A stretch of DNA of 5,864 bases from a candidate division TA06 bacterium SM23_40. GTDB taxonomy: Bacteria > LJUI01 > SM1-40. A program made the translations under genes and the position numbers. The stretch spans positions 1-5,864 of the forward strand of contig LJUI01000154.1 in the NCBI GenBank assembly GCA_001303705.1. Reading direction: 5' to 3'. Shown piece by piece: positions 1 to 5,864 of the stretch; the first letter of the stretch is position 1, and each line of letters opens with the position of its first letter. Under the pieces are notes generated by a model. That model was not told the origin of the DNA, made no database searches, and was given only the letters and a program-made list of their open reading frames with translations.

Positions 1-849
1 GGTTGGACGCACGAGATCGTGACCCCCGGGTTCGTCGACCAGTGGCATCAGTCGACGCAGCGGAACTACACGCCCGGCGGTGCAGTGAGCTGGAAGTGCG
101 GGGACACGGGACCCGGGGACTACGCGAACCTGCTCGATGCCGGTCTCATGACCCCTGAGCTGACGCTCCCCGAGAATCCGGTGTTGACGTTCTGGCACTG
201 GATCGATGCGGAGATATCGCAGATGTATCCGGGCAGGGCGTATGACGGCGGTCTTGTCGAGATCTCGATCGACGGCGGGTTGAACTGGACCCAGATCACG
301 CCCGAGGGCGGGTATCCGTATACGAGCCGCGGCACGACAGGCCCGTTCCCCGAGATGACGCCGATCTACTCCGGCTCATATGACTGGAGCCAGGCGGTCT
401 TCGACCTGAGCGGGTATTCTGGCGAGACTGTGCAGCTTCGGTTCCGGTTTGGCTCGGACCAGGGTGTGACTGCCGAGGGCTGGTATATCGACGATGTGTT
501 GATCGCCGGTCAGCCGGCGGTGACGGTCTCGGTGGAGCCCGATGCGTATGAGGTGCCGCGCGGCGGCACGCTCGGGTACACGGTGACGGTGGAGAACCTG
601 AGCTCGTCAGCGCAGAGCTTCTACGGTCTGATCGATGCGTGGCTGCCGAACGGGTCACCGTACAGCGGCAATCCGCTCCTTGGTCCTGTGCCGGTGACGC
701 TTGCTCCTGGCGGGAGCCGGTCGGAGTACCTGACACGCACGGTGCCGGCCATTGCGCCGCTCGGTGAGTATCTGCTTCGGGTGAAAGTGGGGAATCCGCC
801 TGCCGACCTGCTCGATCAGGACTTCTTCCACTTCAGGGTCGTGCCATAA
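1..849 (+). CDS. C-terminal part of a secreted protein: MAM/ConA-like jelly roll plus shared C-terminal beta-domain (5' truncated)
   Basis: The reading frame is open from base 1 to the TAA at 847-849, giving 282 visible residues; the true start lies upstream. Residues ~1-170 look like a MAM/concanavalin-type jelly roll: 'DQWHQS', 'SWKCGDTGPGDYANL', 'LTFWHW', 'GGLVEISIDGGLNW', 'FDLSGYSGETVQLRFRFGSD' and 'EGWYIDDV' in order. Such modules commonly follow the catalytic domain of secreted bacterial peptidases (M6 immune-inhibitor-A, S8 or C25 types), but no catalytic domain is visible, so the enzyme class is unknown. Residues ~173-282 form a second beta-rich domain ('VPRGGTL', 'LPNGSPYSGNP', 'APLGEY', terminal 'FHFRVVP'). 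It recurs at the C-termini of the next two genes. Only one Cys (C33) is seen. An extracellular location is inferred. The last codons lie within a tandem repeat that continues past the stop. Confidence 0.86.
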   Translation, partial: GWTHEIVTPGFVDQWHQSTQRNYTPGGAVSWKCGDTGPGDYANLLDAGLMTPELTLPENPVLTFWHWIDAEISQMYPGRAYDGGLVEISIDGGLNWTQITPEGGYPYTSRGTTGPFPEMTPIYSGSYDWSQAVFDLSGYSGETVQLRFRFGSDQGVTAEGWYIDDVLIAGQPAVTVSVEPDAYEVPRGGTLGYTVTVENLSSSAQSFYGLIDAWLPNGSPYSGNPLLGPVPVTLAPGGSRSEYLTRTVPAIAPLGEYLLRVKVGNPPADLLDQDFFHFRVVP

Positions 850-973
850 GACGAGATCGGGGTTGTGCCATAGGACGAGTTCGCGTCGTGCCATAAGACG
901 GATTCAGGATTGAGGCACAAGAGGATTCAGGGTCGCCTTACAGGACAAGTTCAGAGTTCTGCTGTGAGAGGAG
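832..973 (+). repeat. Degenerate ~24-bp tandem repeat spanning the end of gene 1
   Basis: About six head-to-tail units start at 832, 856, 880, 903, 926 and 950 (spacings 24, 24, 23, 23, 24). The best core is TTCAGGGTCGTGCCATAAG, followed by ACGAG. The first unit is the actual end of gene 1, encoding F-R-V-V-P-stop. Units 2 and 3 again contain GTN-GTG-CCA-TAA/TAG, that is, VVP-stop. Units 4-6 decay progressively but keep the TTCAG start and a purine-rich tail. The units abut without spacers. Serial slippage duplication of the gene end is the simplest explanation; any function is unknown. The rest of the gap to 1053 holds no recognisable gene or clear promoter, apart from the ribosome binding site. 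Confidence 0.75.
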
Positions 974-1042
974 GTCTGTGATAGTCAGGAGGGTGTTTCG
1001 AAGTCCGATCCTGTTGCAGAGACACAGATTTTGCGAGTAGAG

Positions 1043-1047
1043 AGGAG
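1043..1047 (+). promoter_or_regulatory. Ribosome binding site of the C25-like peptidase gene
   Basis: AGGAG ends 6 nt before the ATG at 1054, within the purine-rich run AGAGGAGAGA. Together with the signal peptide that starts at this ATG, it fixes the start codon. Confidence 0.75.
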
Positions 1048-1053
1048 AGACTG

Positions 1054-2706
1054 ATGGGTCGACGATGGATTGTGCTGCCCCTTGTACTGCTTATCGGTTC
1101 GAGCGTGGCGGCTGAGGAGGCCGACAACGGTGTGTGCGATGCAGGTGCCATCCCTGTGACACGATGGGAATCTCCACATGGCGAGGTCCCCCTCTCGTTC
1201 GAGGAATGGAGGGCGGCCCGTCCGTGGCCGAGAGACTTCTCGCTCGGCCGGGTCTATCATTCCGCGGTCAGGGCTGCTCCCGATGTGGACGTCATCGTGA
1301 ACAGCGAGCTGTACGATGACATCGAGGCCGCGTTGGGCCAGTACGTTGCGGAGCTCGAGTCCTGGGGATATGTCGTGACCGTCGATACGGCGTCTGCCGC
1401 TCAGACGATACCGGCGTGCGAAGAGCTGAGACAATATCTTGCGGACCGCCATGCAGCAGGACTAGAGGGAGTCGTGCTCATCGGCGACCTTCCTGTGCCC
1501 TGGTTCCAGATGATCGATGAGTTCGAGGGAGACGACCTTCGTGATGATTACGAGGAGTTTCCCATCGATCTCTTCTACATGGACCTCGACGGTGAGTGGG
1601 CTGACGAGCTGCACTATGACCCCCAGAGTCAGCAGATGGTTCCCGGCCCTGACGGCATCTTCGACACCCATGAGGGGGGGATGGAGCCGGAGATCTGGAC
1701 CGGGAGGATGACCGCATCACCCCTTGGGGATGAGGTGTACCTGATCACCAATTATCTCGGCAAGGTTCACGCATTCAGGACCGGCGCCAACACGCTTGCC
1801 GAGCGGGCGCTCGTCTACGTTGACGACGATTGGTACCCGTGGGCCATGCAGTGGTCAGGCGATGTAGGGCTCGCCTATGGCGACCGGACCAACGTCTACG
1901 ATCCGGAAGAGACAACGGCCTGGGACTATCGCGATCGTCTGGACGACGACTATGAGTGGATCGCCGTTCACGCACACTCCTGGCCGGGTGGCCATGGATT
2001 CGTGTACAACAACGGATCGAGCTGGAGTTGGTTCTATGCCTACGAAATACCGTCGATAGATCCTCTCGCTCTCTTCTATAACCTATTTGCCTGTTCTAAC
2101 GCGCGGTACGTTGAGGACGGATATATGGGCGGGGAGTATGTTTTCGCCCCGACCAGGGGACTGGGAGCGATCGGTTCGACCAAGACGGGGAGCATGCTCG
2201 AATTCCAGGATTTCTATGGTCCGCTCGGAGAGGGCAAGGAGATCGGAGAGGCGTTCCGTGCCTGGTTCGAGGCGCAGATCAAGGACGGGTTCGAGATGTG
2301 GGAGAAGTCATGGTACTATGGGATGACGCTCCTCGGTGATCCGACCCTGCGTCCGCAGGCTCCAGCGGTATCGGTGGCCATGACGCCAGAGTCGGTGGAG
2401 CTGGCCCCGGGTGAGACGCTCGTCTATACAGCTACCGTGGTCAACCACGCGGATACGTCCGTGACGTTCGTAGGATACGGCGATGTCAGTCTTCCCAATG
2501 GGAATCCGTATCCAGGCAATCCTGTCCTCGGTCCGATCACGATCGTGCTCGGCCCGAATCAAGTGAAGAGTCGATCGATCCAACACGTAATCCCGCTGGG
2601 GGCGCCCGCCGGCACGTACACGTATGAGGGCGTTGCGGAGACGCTCCTGGGGGAGGAGATCGACCGGGACGATTTCGAGTTCACGGTGAACGCCTCTGCG
2701 GGGTAG
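1054..2706 (+). CDS. Secreted gingipain-like cysteine peptidase (family C25) with shared C-terminal domain
   Basis: This 550-residue protein starts at an ATG with a good RBS and a Sec signal peptide: basic MGRR, hydrophobic core to ~18, likely cut near 'SSVAA'. Residues ~77-150 match the C25 N-terminal fold ('DVIVNSELYDDI', 'ELESWGYVV', 'GVVLIGDLPVPW'). The caspase-like catalytic part has 'VHAHSWPGGHGF' (H306, H308, H314) and 'LFYNLFACSNARY' (C347). It then reads 'GLGAIGSTKTGSML', 'GEAFRAWF' and 'YYGMTLLGDPTLRPQ', the usual end of C25 domains. C347 is the likely nucleophile. H314 lies 33 residues before it, the His-Cys spacing of gingipains. Expected role: extracellular endopeptidase; specificity cannot be read. 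Acidic patches (for example 'VDDDWY') could bind calcium, which is speculative. Residues ~438-546 are the C-terminal domain shared with both neighbouring genes; no typical T9SS tail is seen. The gaps are 204 nt upstream and 100 nt downstream. Confidence 0.9.
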   Translation: MGRRWIVLPLVLLIGSSVAAEEADNGVCDAGAIPVTRWESPHGEVPLSFEEWRAARPWPRDFSLGRVYHSAVRAAPDVDVIVNSELYDDIEAALGQYVAELESWGYVVTVDTASAAQTIPACEELRQYLADRHAAGLEGVVLIGDLPVPWFQMIDEFEGDDLRDDYEEFPIDLFYMDLDGEWADELHYDPQSQQMVPGPDGIFDTHEGGMEPEIWTGRMTASPLGDEVYLITNYLGKVHAFRTGANTLAERALVYVDDDWYPWAMQWSGDVGLAYGDRTNVYDPEETTAWDYRDRLDDDYEWIAVHAHSWPGGHGFVYNNGSSWSWFYAYEIPSIDPLALFYNLFACSNARYVEDGYMGGEYVFAPTRGLGAIGSTKTGSMLEFQDFYGPLGEGKEIGEAFRAWFEAQIKDGFEMWEKSWYYGMTLLGDPTLRPQAPAVSVAMTPESVELAPGETLVYTATVVNHADTSVTFVGYGDVSLPNGNPYPGNPVLGPITIVLGPNQVKSRSIQHVIPLGAPAGTYTYEGVAETLLGEEIDRDDFEFTVNASAG

Positions 2707-2716
2707 TCCTCACCAG

Positions 2717-2735
2717 CTGCCCTGATCGGGGGCAG
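2717..2735 (+). repeat. Small inverted repeat between genes 2 and 3
   Basis: CTGCCC (2717-2722) and GGGCAG (2730-2735) can pair as a 6-bp stem with a 7-nt loop, 11 nt after the stop of the C25-like gene. No T-run follows, so it is not a convincing terminator. It could stabilise the mRNA end or be chance. The rest of the 100-nt gap shows no clear promoter. Confidence 0.35.
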
Positions 2736-2785
2736 TGGTGCGAACCTTGAATAGCCTGGCAGAATTGCCTCAGCTGGTTCTGTAC

Positions 2786-2795
2786 AGGAGGAGGG
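2786..2795 (+). promoter_or_regulatory. Ribosome binding site that sets the start of the papain-like gene
   Basis: AGGAGGAGGG lies 11 nt before the ATG at 2807. It supports that ATG over the in-frame GTG at 2735, which would add 24 non-hydrophobic residues in front of an otherwise typical signal peptide and would place this RBS inside the coding sequence. Confidence 0.8.
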
Positions 2796-2806
2796 AGTCA
2801 GAAATC

Positions 2807-4768
2807 ATGGCGAAGAGAGTGATCAGCATCAGTAGCGTCGTGTCGATTCTGGTCCTCGGGCTCACAGTACCTGAACTCGCTGCCGGCGTCTCCTATCCGT
2901 CGGAGATACTCACTCTCGAAGAACTGACCAGGGGAGTCAAGGAGGCCAGTGCTGTGTCGAGGGCGGCTGACATCCAGATCGCCAACACCATCTCTATGGC
3001 AGAGGAACAGCTTGCCGATCAGCCATCGAGCATCGCCCATCGTGAGATGCTCCGGCTCTATACCGGTACCGAGGCCGGCATGCCGCGGCTCATCTTCGCC
3101 GAGGATGGGCCCATGTGCTGGAGCGTACCGCTTGTGCGGGATGAGGCGATCGTCGGGTTCCTGCTGTTCAACCCGTACACGGCATCGCTGATGGCAACGC
3201 CGATGTGGCAGGCCGGTGGCGATCCGGCAGTCTCAGTCAGTGAGAAAGAGTGGAATGAGCTCGAGAGACTCGTGACTCGCGCGCTCGGGATATCCGTGGG
3301 AAGCGAGGCGCGGCTCATCCAGATCGTGAACGGGTACGCGTTTCTCCTCTATCTGGCAGTTCCCGAGCACGGTGAGGTGTACCGCGTCGATGTGACGAGC
3401 CTCGGCGAACCAGGCGGGCTTCACCCTCGTCGGCTCGTCGATCAGCCTGTGACTCAGATCCCGCCGTCGTGCATCAGGAGAGAACCTCCAGCACCGTCGG
3501 AAACGTCCGGGAGCGGGTACAGCCTCGACTTCCCCATTCCAACAAGCTTCTCGCTCGCGGTGATGCCGAGGGTCATTGATCAATGTGCCTACGGGGCCTG
3601 TACAGGCCACGCCGCAACGTCGACCCGCGAATGGTGGGAGTGTGGAGCCATTTGCTACGATGGCACGGGGAATTCGGGCGAGTACACTTGTGAGTGCGAC
3701 AAGAACTACTACGGGACATGTTATGACTGTATCGTCATCAACCTGAGCCGCGAGTACATGTACGACCGGACCCGCACCTGGCCCGAAGGGTACGTGTACG
3801 ACATGGACTGTGACGTGTATGGATTCTGCATCAACAACAGCTGCGGACAGGGGACCTGTACCAATAACCTCGTTACCGATGGCGACATGATGAGCAACAA
3901 CCCGTACTGCCATCAGTGCGGGGGGGCCAATCCAGCCGACGCGGCAGCGGTACTTGTGGGGGAAGGGACCTGCACCGAGGCGTGCCAGCCCTATCCCAAC
4001 TACGGGTACGCCGGCCCTCAGCATGCGGGGTGCACTAACGGTGGACGGGAGGCCTGTACGGATCAGTGCTGGAACGTCACCGGCCCCTGCGGAGACGACT
4101 TCAAGCTGCAGAGCTATGGTGAGGTGATGACGGTGGAGGAGATAACCGATGCGGTCTATCATCACGGACCGGTGTTGGGGGGCGGGGCGATCTGTAGTCC
4201 CTGCTGGATGGGTATCGGCTCCAATGGCTGTGTCTGCTATCCCACATGCCCCTGCCCTATCGCCGGGGGTCATGCGTACATGATCTACGGCTATGATAAC
4301 GATTACAATCCTCCGATCCTCTACCTTCAGAACAGCTGGGGGACGGGCTGGGGTCAGATCGGCCGCGGCATGACGAGCCAGGCGGCATACACCCAGTTCC
4401 ACACGCCTCCTGACTTCTACTTCGTGGGCGGGAAGGACATCAGGATAACGGTCTCGCCGCACAGTACTGTCGTCCCACGGGGAGGCACGCTCTCCCTGAC
4501 GGCGACAGTCGAGAATTTCAGCGATCAGCCGCAGAGCTTCTCTGCGTGGACCGATGTCTATCTGCCCAACGGGAACCCCTATCCCGGGAATCCGGTGGCC
4601 GGTCCGAAGAGCGTCACGCTCCAGCCCTATCAACAGGTATCGAGGGAACTGAACCACTTCGTTCCTAACGTCGCACCGCTCGGCTTCTACCGGTATGTGG
4701 GCTGCGTGGGAATCTATCCGATGCAGGTGGACGACGACGACGAGTTTATCTTCATCGTGACACCGTAG
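2807..4768 (+). CDS. Secreted papain-like cysteine peptidase (family C1) with Cys-rich insertion and shared C-terminal domain
   Basis: This 653-residue protein starts at the ATG behind a strong RBS. Residues 1-~27 are a signal peptide (MAKR, hydrophobic core, 'ELAAG'). Residues ~29-210 form a module also found in the next gene, probably a propeptide; it shows no ERFNIN-type papain proregion. The catalytic domain begins near 240. 'VIDQCAYGACTGHA' supplies the oxyanion Q259 and nucleophile C265, with papain's six-residue spacing; Thr replaces the usual Trp after the Cys, as in some bacterial C1 enzymes. 'GGHAYMIYGY' gives H489 and 'LQNSWGTGWG' gives N509, completing the triad. Between Cys and His, residues 279-483 hold 24 cysteines, many as CxC or CxxC, suggesting disulfides or a metal site outside the cell. 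Residues ~544-653 are the C-terminal domain shared with genes 1 and 2. Expected role: extracellular proteolysis, probably after zymogen processing. Gene 2 lies 100 nt upstream; a terminator lies 16 nt downstream. Confidence 0.92.
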   Translation: MAKRVISISSVVSILVLGLTVPELAAGVSYPSEILTLEELTRGVKEASAVSRAADIQIANTISMAEEQLADQPSSIAHREMLRLYTGTEAGMPRLIFAEDGPMCWSVPLVRDEAIVGFLLFNPYTASLMATPMWQAGGDPAVSVSEKEWNELERLVTRALGISVGSEARLIQIVNGYAFLLYLAVPEHGEVYRVDVTSLGEPGGLHPRRLVDQPVTQIPPSCIRREPPAPSETSGSGYSLDFPIPTSFSLAVMPRVIDQCAYGACTGHAATSTREWWECGAICYDGTGNSGEYTCECDKNYYGTCYDCIVINLSREYMYDRTRTWPEGYVYDMDCDVYGFCINNSCGQGTCTNNLVTDGDMMSNNPYCHQCGGANPADAAAVLVGEGTCTEACQPYPNYGYAGPQHAGCTNGGREACTDQCWNVTGPCGDDFKLQSYGEVMTVEEITDAVYHHGPVLGGGAICSPCWMGIGSNGCVCYPTCPCPIAGGHAYMIYGYDNDYNPPILYLQNSWGTGWGQIGRGMTSQAAYTQFHTPPDFYFVGGKDIRITVSPHSTVVPRGGTLSLTATVENFSDQPQSFSAWTDVYLPNGNPYPGNPVAGPKSVTLQPYQQVSRELNHFVPNVAPLGFYRYVGCVGIYPMQVDDDDEFIFIVTP

Positions 4769-4784
4769 GCGAGTGTTGAACCGA

Positions 4785-4819
4785 GCCGCCGCCGGCACAT
4801 GCGCTGGCGGCGGCTTTTT
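4785..4819 (+). terminator. Strong intrinsic terminator after the papain-like gene
   Basis: GCCGCCGCCGGC (4785-4796) pairs with GCTGGCGGCGGC (4803-4814) as a 12-bp stem with one G-U pair and a 6-nt loop (ACATGC). Five T follow directly (4815-4819). It lies 16 nt after the stop codon and probably ends the transcript serving genes 1-3 or gene 3 alone. Confidence 0.9.
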
Positions 4820-4957: not shown

Positions 4958-4986
4958 TTGACAATCTCGTGAAGTGGTGATATGCT
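4958..4986 (+). promoter_or_regulatory. Sigma70-type promoter of gene 4
   Basis: A perfect -35 TTGACA (4958-4963) and the -10 TATGCT (4981-4986) are 17 nt apart, the optimum. TG at 4978-4979 plus one base before the -10 makes an extended -10. The region just upstream is locally AT-richer (ATTTTCCC). Transcription would start near 4992-4995, leaving a leader of about 235 nt before the ATG at 5230. Confidence 0.75.
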
Positions 4987-5229: not shown

Positions 5230-5864
5230 ATGATGAGAAGAGCGGTTACCGTGTCCTGTCTTGCGTCCGTGCTGATCCTCGCTCTTGCCGCAACCGGACT
5301 GTCGGCAGCAGCGCCCTATCCAAGCGAGATACTCCCTGTACAGGAGCTCACAGAGGGGACGAAGAGCTCTGCCTTCGTGTCCAGGGCGGCGGAGATCCAG
5401 ATCGCGAATACTATTTCCGGAGCCGAGGAGCAGATCTCAGTCAACCAGGCCGGCCTCGGCCAACGTGAGATGCTCCAGTTATATACCGGTACAGAGGCAG
5501 GAAGGCCGCGGCTTATCTTCGGAGAAGACGGACCGCTCTGCTGGAGCGTTCCCATGGTCCGTGACGCGGTCATAGTCGGGTTCCTCCTGTTCAATCCATA
5601 CTCGGGATCGCTCATGGCTTCACCTCTATGGCAGGGCGGCGGCGCTCCTGTCGTATCGATCGGTGAGGCGGAGTGGAACGAGATTGAGGTGCGAGTGGCG
5701 CAGACGTTGGGTATATCCGTTGGCGGCGAAGCCCGGCTCATTCAACTGCCCAACGGTGCGGGCTTCACTCTCTATCTGGCCATTCCCAATCGCGACGATG
5801 TCGCCCGCATCGATGTGACGAGCATCGGGGAGGCGAGCGGCCTCATTCCTCGGCTGCTCCATAG
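5230..5864 (+). CDS. Secreted paralogue of the papain-like protease, N-terminal module only (3' truncated by window)
   Basis: An open frame of 211 codons from ATG 5230 runs off the right edge without a stop. Residues 1-~28 are a signal peptide (MMRR, hydrophobic stretch to 'LSAAA'). From residue 30 it aligns without gaps to the papain-like protein encoded at 2807-4768: about 118 of 180 positions identical between residues 31 and 210 by hand count. Invariant stretches include 'PSEIL', 'IQIANTIS', 'LYTGTEAG', 'CWSVP', 'IVGFLLFNPY', 'GISVG' and 'DVTS'. C104 is at the same position in both. By paralogy it is probably another secreted C1-type peptidase, but the catalytic region lies outside the window, so a stand-alone inhibitor-like or propeptide-like protein cannot be excluded. 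It has its own promoter (4958-4986) and long leader, so its expression is likely separate from that of the upstream genes. Confidence 0.9.
   Translation, partial: MMRRAVTVSCLASVLILALAATGLSAAAPYPSEILPVQELTEGTKSSAFVSRAAEIQIANTISGAEEQISVNQAGLGQREMLQLYTGTEAGRPRLIFGEDGPLCWSVPMVRDAVIVGFLLFNPYSGSLMASPLWQGGGAPVVSIGEAEWNEIEVRVAQTLGISVGGEARLIQLPNGAGFTLYLAIPNRDDVARIDVTSIGEASGLIPRLLH

Follow-up and report, generated by a model that had tools for sequence, protein, structure and literature searches.

Three genes with one C-terminal domain

The stretch of DNA analysed here (the window, 5864 nt) is the entire contig C126 of the assembly of candidate division TA06 bacterium SM23_40 (2.88 Mb in 189 contigs, about 90% complete; G000, hereafter the source genome), which is the sole member of its phylum within our sample of 386 genomes. 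It holds genes 1, 2 and 3 and part of a gene 4, and the products of genes 1 to 3 share a C-terminal domain, here labelled D (Table 1). In front of D the three proteins are unrelated, with an InhA-like MAM / choice-of-anchor J region in gene 1, a Peptidase_C25 in gene 2 and a Peptidase_C1 in gene 3. The three copies of D align pairwise without gaps over about 110 columns at 38-46% identity, with local alignment scores of 205-235 compared to a maximum of 60 among 500 shuffles per pair, and 34 of 114 columns are invariant. The motifs (P)RGGTL / PGETL, D..LPNG.PY.GNP..GP and (V/I)P..AP.G.Y, as well as an acidic D.D.F.F.V end, were found in the copies, in agreement with a first-pass annotation that had been made from the letters of the window. 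D is the exact end of the proteins encoded by genes 1 and 3, and gene 2 adds 4 residues past the end of the profile. The three C-terminal regions of about 110 residues are one homologous domain; the annotation was thus right in proposing a single C-terminal domain common to three proteins with unrelated front ends, and in describing it as the end of genes 1 and 3 and nearly so of gene 2.

Table 1. Coordinates of genes, D copies and a repeat in the window
Feature	Position	Strand	Description
Gene 1	1..849	+	5' end lost at the contig edge; front of InhA-like MAM / choice-of-anchor J type (about 241-507) and D; PF20773 43.6 bits (cut-off 26.9)
D copy 1 (gene 1)	505..846	+	Terminates ...FHFRVVP-stop; from alignment and profile
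47-nt near-tandem repeat of gene 1 end (GTCGTGCCATAAGACG...)	838..931	+	70% alike
Gene 2	1054..2706	+	Sec signal peptide, Peptidase C25 (about 1393-2352) and D; PF01364 36.6 bits (cut-off 23)
D copy 2 (gene 2)	2353..2691	+	4 residues between profile end and stop
Gene 3	2807..4768	+	Sec signal peptide, N-terminal region of about 200 amino acids, Peptidase C1 (about 3908-4363) and D; PF00112 31.1 bits (cut-off 20.7)
D copy 3 (gene 3)	4424..4765	+	Terminates ...FIFIVTP-stop; AlphaFold2 model, for which copies 1 and 2 formed the alignment
Gene 4, partial	5230..5862	+	Signal peptide and N-terminal region, 64% identical to its counterpart in gene 3; truncated by contig end

Domain D in the source genome and in other genomes

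A profile made from the three copies matched 103 places in the source genome, and a 45-row profile matched 105. Among the matches in frames with a stop codon, D ended within 7 residues of the stop in 80 of 103 and within 28 residues in 95 of 103. A second match was present in just one frame and was weak, indicating that there is essentially one D per protein and that tandem arrays do not occur. The final residue was proline in 51 of 82 terminal copies as compared to 6 of 104 control frames (9 of 20 once redundancy was removed), and the last 40 residues of D proteins were acidic, with a mean charge of -2.7 against +0.3 in the controls. The front ends (n = 97) formed 35 whole-length clusters and touched 34 Pfam families, mostly of extracellular type, including beta-helix, C25 with propeptide, C1, M14, S8, M1, M10, PAD, Omp28, FG-GAP, BNR and MAM. 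By a crude home-made rule, Sec signal peptides were about twice as frequent in D proteins as in controls (63 of 84 vs 38 of 103). The first-pass annotation had reasoned that a profile hidden Markov model finding the domain at the C-terminus of many secreted proteins would speak for sorting, and the result favours a domain of the sorting or retention type, with about 105 copies, one per protein, about 92% of them at the extreme C-terminus and behind many unrelated secreted fronts. Two further ideas were rejected. Lipoprotein anchoring was discarded since a crude rule found no lipobox in the 84 D proteins, and a D-specific shuttle gene next door was discarded since the recurrent neighbours of D genes, as grouped by blastp clustering, were further secreted paralogues only; no PorP/SprF-like recurrent neighbour appeared in this clustering, and no search aimed at PorP/SprF models was made.

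The source genome also encodes SprA (504.6 bits, cut-off 200), six PorV-family proteins above cut-off and 49 matches to the type A C-terminal domain (CTD) of the type IX secretion system (T9SS), nearly all at the extreme C-terminus and with the usual basic end; a T9SS is thus present in a phylum otherwise absent from the sample. D and the type A CTD never occurred in one frame (D was present in 0 of 49 type A frames, and the type A CTD in none of the D frames), the chance of which is 5e-6 to 0.004 if a secretome of 500-1000 proteins is assumed. Both endings were found within six front-end clusters; for example, contigs C117 and C143 encode a D protein and a type A protein, respectively, that share 45% identity over 557 amino acids. 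The tree of the largest cluster, the beta-helix proteins, contains six changes of ending, at least two of which are forced by well-supported branches. Repeated exchange was rejected for the gene 3 family, where gene 3 and its four type A paralogues on contig C13, which carry about 370 additional residues ahead of the CTD, fall into separate clades and a single change of ending suffices. Since related front ends bear either ending, D is an alternative to the type A CTD as the last module of related proteins, and such relatives provide natural swap pairs for studying how the route of export and the final location depend on a protein's last domain. About twice as many proteins of the source genome carry D as carry the type A T9SS signal, and no curated model covers D.

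Several D proteins are arranged or built in unusual ways. On contig C117, about ten D-ended proteins, mostly beta-helix, lie head to tail in 20 kb (L061, C117:1-20000), and similar runs of type A-ended paralogues were seen on contigs C13, C42 and C84. Four beta-helix proteins (L065, L078, L081 and L071, on contigs C165, C185, C89 and C42) have an internal D followed by a common domain of about 205 residues (YLIWE.D.TPISG...), which may itself be a terminal module. One other internal D precedes a region that looks legumain-like, judged by eye alone.

Searching the 386-genome sample at a threshold of E 1e-8 identified D in 10 of 386 genomes; a scan of genome contigs with the three-copy profile gave just two short Firmicutes matches, which are probably due to chance. 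Copies are numerous in the two genomes of family f118 (32 in G117 and 28 in G255, both with SprA), while 5 were counted in each of the three genomes of family f25 (G024, G171 and G310) and 3 in G246, SprA not being found in any of these four, and G207 has one D together with SprA and 87 type A matches. SprA was thus detected in G000, G117, G255 and G207, and profile searches of G024 also gave no PorV-family or type A match; missing calls of SprA, and of GspD below, are results of profile searches of incomplete genomes. In the sequence stretches retrieved from other genomes, 47 of 54 copies lay within 20 residues of the stop, and in the genomes where SprA was not found D was C-terminal in 14 of 14 copies (5/5 in G024 and 3/3 each in G171, G310 and G246). 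In G255 (L177, L180), three proteins hold an internal D and terminate, about 220-280 residues further on, in a type A CTD; they are exceptions to the exclusivity seen in the source genome. Judging from these profile matches, D appears to be a terminal module that can do without a T9SS, though it is most numerous where a T9SS exists, as C-terminal D is also found in genomes without detectable SprA; for the same reason a strictly T9SS-specific signal is unlikely. The first-pass annotation had likened the reuse of the domain to that of sorting signals, type IX CTDs among them; a signal strictly of T9SS type is not supported, given the equally C-terminal D of genomes without detected SprA and the three G255 proteins in which D precedes a genuine type A CTD. 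With a profile of D, an entire second secretome could be annotated in phyla that are poorly known.

Fold, relatives and possible role of D

An AlphaFold2 model of D, for which the three window copies served as the alignment, is an eight-strand sandwich with a mean predicted local distance difference test score (pLDDT) of 92.9 and a strand running up to the terminus. The best match among solved folds was RbmA (Z 14.4 over 106 residues), followed by CARDB (Z 12.1) and, also lower, many immunoglobulin (Ig) or fibronectin type III (FnIII) accessory domains of enzymes; T9SS CTD structures were absent among the fold matches listed, which carries no weight either way. RbmA was also the only clear sequence match when the 45-row profile was compared with the PDB (E 4e-7 to both RbmA sequences, with both FnIII domains aligned). 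The Pfam RbmA-like family PF22021 was touched by 2 of 45 D copies (best E 0.0039), and the one score shown, 13 bits for D copy 3, was below the gathering score of 27. NEW3 (PF10633) was weakly similar to an equal number of the 45 copies (2, with a best E of 0.00067). The possibility that D is a Pfam or NCBIfam family under another name was rejected, nothing being above cut-off, and a narrow literature search found no prior description. The model thus places D, with confidence, among the Ig/FnIII sandwiches, with RbmA and CARDB as its nearest matches. The first-pass annotation had offered either an undescribed sorting or anchoring domain or an Ig-like binding domain; the second reading is also right in part, as the fold is Ig-like and the nearest solved relative, by fold and by sequence profile, is the polysaccharide-binding RbmA.

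D shares with RbmA of Vibrio cholerae (PF22021, 4kkp/4be6) a secreted beta-sandwich that is its best fold match and detectable by profile. It differs in being a single copy appended to enzymes, whereas RbmA consists of just two tandem FnIII domains and dimerises. RbmA is a biofilm matrix protein, and its FnIII-2 is sufficient for binding the exopolysaccharide VPS (Vibrio polysaccharide) (PMC5605196). The accessory domains of CARDB / NEW3 type (e.g., 3idu, PF10633) have a similar fold (Z about 12) and lack a match across the D copies. Families of this type are often internal or tandem, while D is nearly always terminal and single.

The type A CTD (PF18962/TIGR04183) resembles D in its extreme C-terminal position, its occurrence once per protein, its many unrelated secreted fronts and its Ig-like sandwich. 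However, it is about 80 amino acids long as compared to about 110 for D, and has a PNP start, which D lacks, and a basic KMVLLR-type end where D is acidic and often terminates in proline. A divergent type A CTD was rejected as an identity for D, as hhalign against 42 type A CTDs of the source genome gave a probability of 1.2%. Pfam and NCBIfam scans of 45 D members matched neither the type A models nor those of type B (PF13585/TIGR04131); the NCBIfam scan gave no match to type C either, in a library that may not include the cl41395 (ChiA-type) model. Type B and C CTDs are likewise terminal and belong to other sequence families coexisting with type A, but differ from D in that D matched none of the T9SS signal models in the Pfam and NCBIfam scans and that the clustering showed no recurrent shuttle-type family beside D genes. 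Models of LPXTG, PEP-CTERM and MYXO-CTERM type had no NCBIfam match to D, and the end of D, with its negative charge and its beta-strand to the terminus, has no hydrophobic segment followed by a basic tail. Three families of T9SS CTD (A, B and C) are recognised and the CTD fold has been described (PMC10202324), and different CTD families use family-specific shuttles (PMC12618676).

The placement of D, its single copy, the breadth of its partners and its exclusivity with type A together suggest that D acts in routing or retention and not in the chemistry of a single enzyme, and D probably marks where proteins go or what they stick to. The explanation we favour, tentatively, is that D, a self-contained sandwich, ends a second class of exported proteins, next to the type A cargo, and serves them as a module for retention or matrix binding; in these proteins it would replace the type A CTD and decide the destination. 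Members of this class (proteases of families C25, C1, M14, S8, M1 and M10, right-handed beta-helix proteins, beta-propellers and MAM-type proteins) would cross the inner membrane via Sec, with D folding last, and would then pass the outer membrane, either by a route like the type II secretion system (T2SS) or by the T9SS. An uncleaved D could subsequently keep its protein on the cell surface or within the extracellular matrix by binding to a surface or matrix polysaccharide, as FnIII-2 of RbmA does, and the net effect would be that carrying D in place of a type A CTD sets where the protein ends up. We lean towards retention on polysaccharide after export because D is present without a T9SS and is related to RbmA. 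Several points weigh against this explanation. RbmA is a remote homologue (about 15-20% identity), and the near-total C-terminal placement exceeds what an ordinary binding domain needs. Proteins with only D need to exit through the outer membrane, yet the source genome has no GspD above the cut-off, although a T2SS-like locus is present on contig C55. Moreover, the placement could in part reflect shared descent of domain and stop codon as one unit, and a few internal copies do exist, with 7 of 103 matches in source genome frames with a stop being internal by more than 60 residues.

Less probable, and in our opinion rather unlikely, is that D adds one more class to the C-terminal signals of the T9SS in this lineage and is read by SprA and a PorV-like shuttle in parallel to type A. 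SprA, the six PorV-family proteins and the 49 type A CTDs would fit such a role, as would two endings that are mutually exclusive yet exchangeable, and D is commonest in SprA genomes (105, 32 and 28 copies vs 3-5). The front ends with C25 and propeptide, PAD and Omp28 resemble known T9SS cargo. An additional CTD family would also have precedent, both in the known families A, B and C (PMC10202324) and in their family-specific shuttles (PMC12618676). On the other hand, D is equally C-terminal in the three f25 genomes and G246, where SprA was not found and where G024 is also without PorV-family and type A matches, and G207, with its SprA and 87 type A matches, has one D only; the G255 proteins with internal D and terminal type A, as well as the lack of profile similarity between the two domains, also argue against it. 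Hardly differing in likelihood, a shade below, is the alternative that D is an Ig/FnIII domain of the ordinary kind, generic in its role (stability, inter-domain packing or substrate contact), and is found at the C-terminus because domain and stop codon have spread jointly. The FnIII/CARDB fold is common among accessory domains of enzymes, the few internal copies are as expected from it, and D sequences mostly track the class of their front end, though 17 changes are needed as compared to a minimum of 9. Such a generic domain does not readily account for the exclusivity with type A (at an assumed secretome of 500-1000 proteins), nor for the single copy per protein without tandem arrays, nor for the same terminal placement in unrelated genomes.

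Export machinery other than the T9SS was considered as well. GspD was above the cut-off in all three f25 and both f118 genomes, and contig C55 of the source genome carries a T2SS-like locus (L191, C55:2233-11595) with a GspC-like protein below the cut-off, a PilX-like protein, a secretin with a GspD N0 domain and a PilM-PilN fusion, distinct from a pilM-N...Q cluster on contig C22. D could on this basis aid exit by a T2SS-type machine, with the choice between D and type A selecting the export route. We regard this as the least probable of the explanations, since GspD was not above the curated cut-off in the source genome, G207 or G246 and the correlation spans few lineages; T2SS cargo is not known to share one terminal domain. 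A broader version, in which D would be an undescribed class of C-terminal sorting signal recognised by outer-membrane export machines of several phyla (the T9SS here and T2SS-like machines elsewhere), so that a swap of D and type A would re-route an enzyme, appears doubtful too, ranking between the T2SS proposal and the generic domain.

Other features of the window

The likely start of gene 3 is the ATG at 2807 rather than the GTG at 2735. Gene 4 is a partial paralogue of the N-terminal part of gene 3, and the contig ends before any C-terminal domain is reached. After the signal peptide and, in gene 3, ahead of the papain-like domain, both share a region of about 200 residues (2882-3540 and 5308-5862), which has no match in Pfam and is possibly a propeptide or inhibitor domain; relatives of this region were found in the four type A-ended paralogues on contig C13.

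An imperfect 47-nt direct repeat (GTCGTGCCATAAGACG...) trails the last bases and the stop codon of gene 1 and resembles a duplicated gene end, with additional GTGCCATA-type pieces between the copies. Downstream of gene 3, GCCGCCGCCGGCACATGCGCTGGCGGCGGCTTTTT (4778-4818) resembles a strong intrinsic terminator and was missed by the terminator scan, which has a loop limit of 8. Upstream of gene 4, a promoter-like TTGACA-17-TATGCT site is located at 4958-4986.

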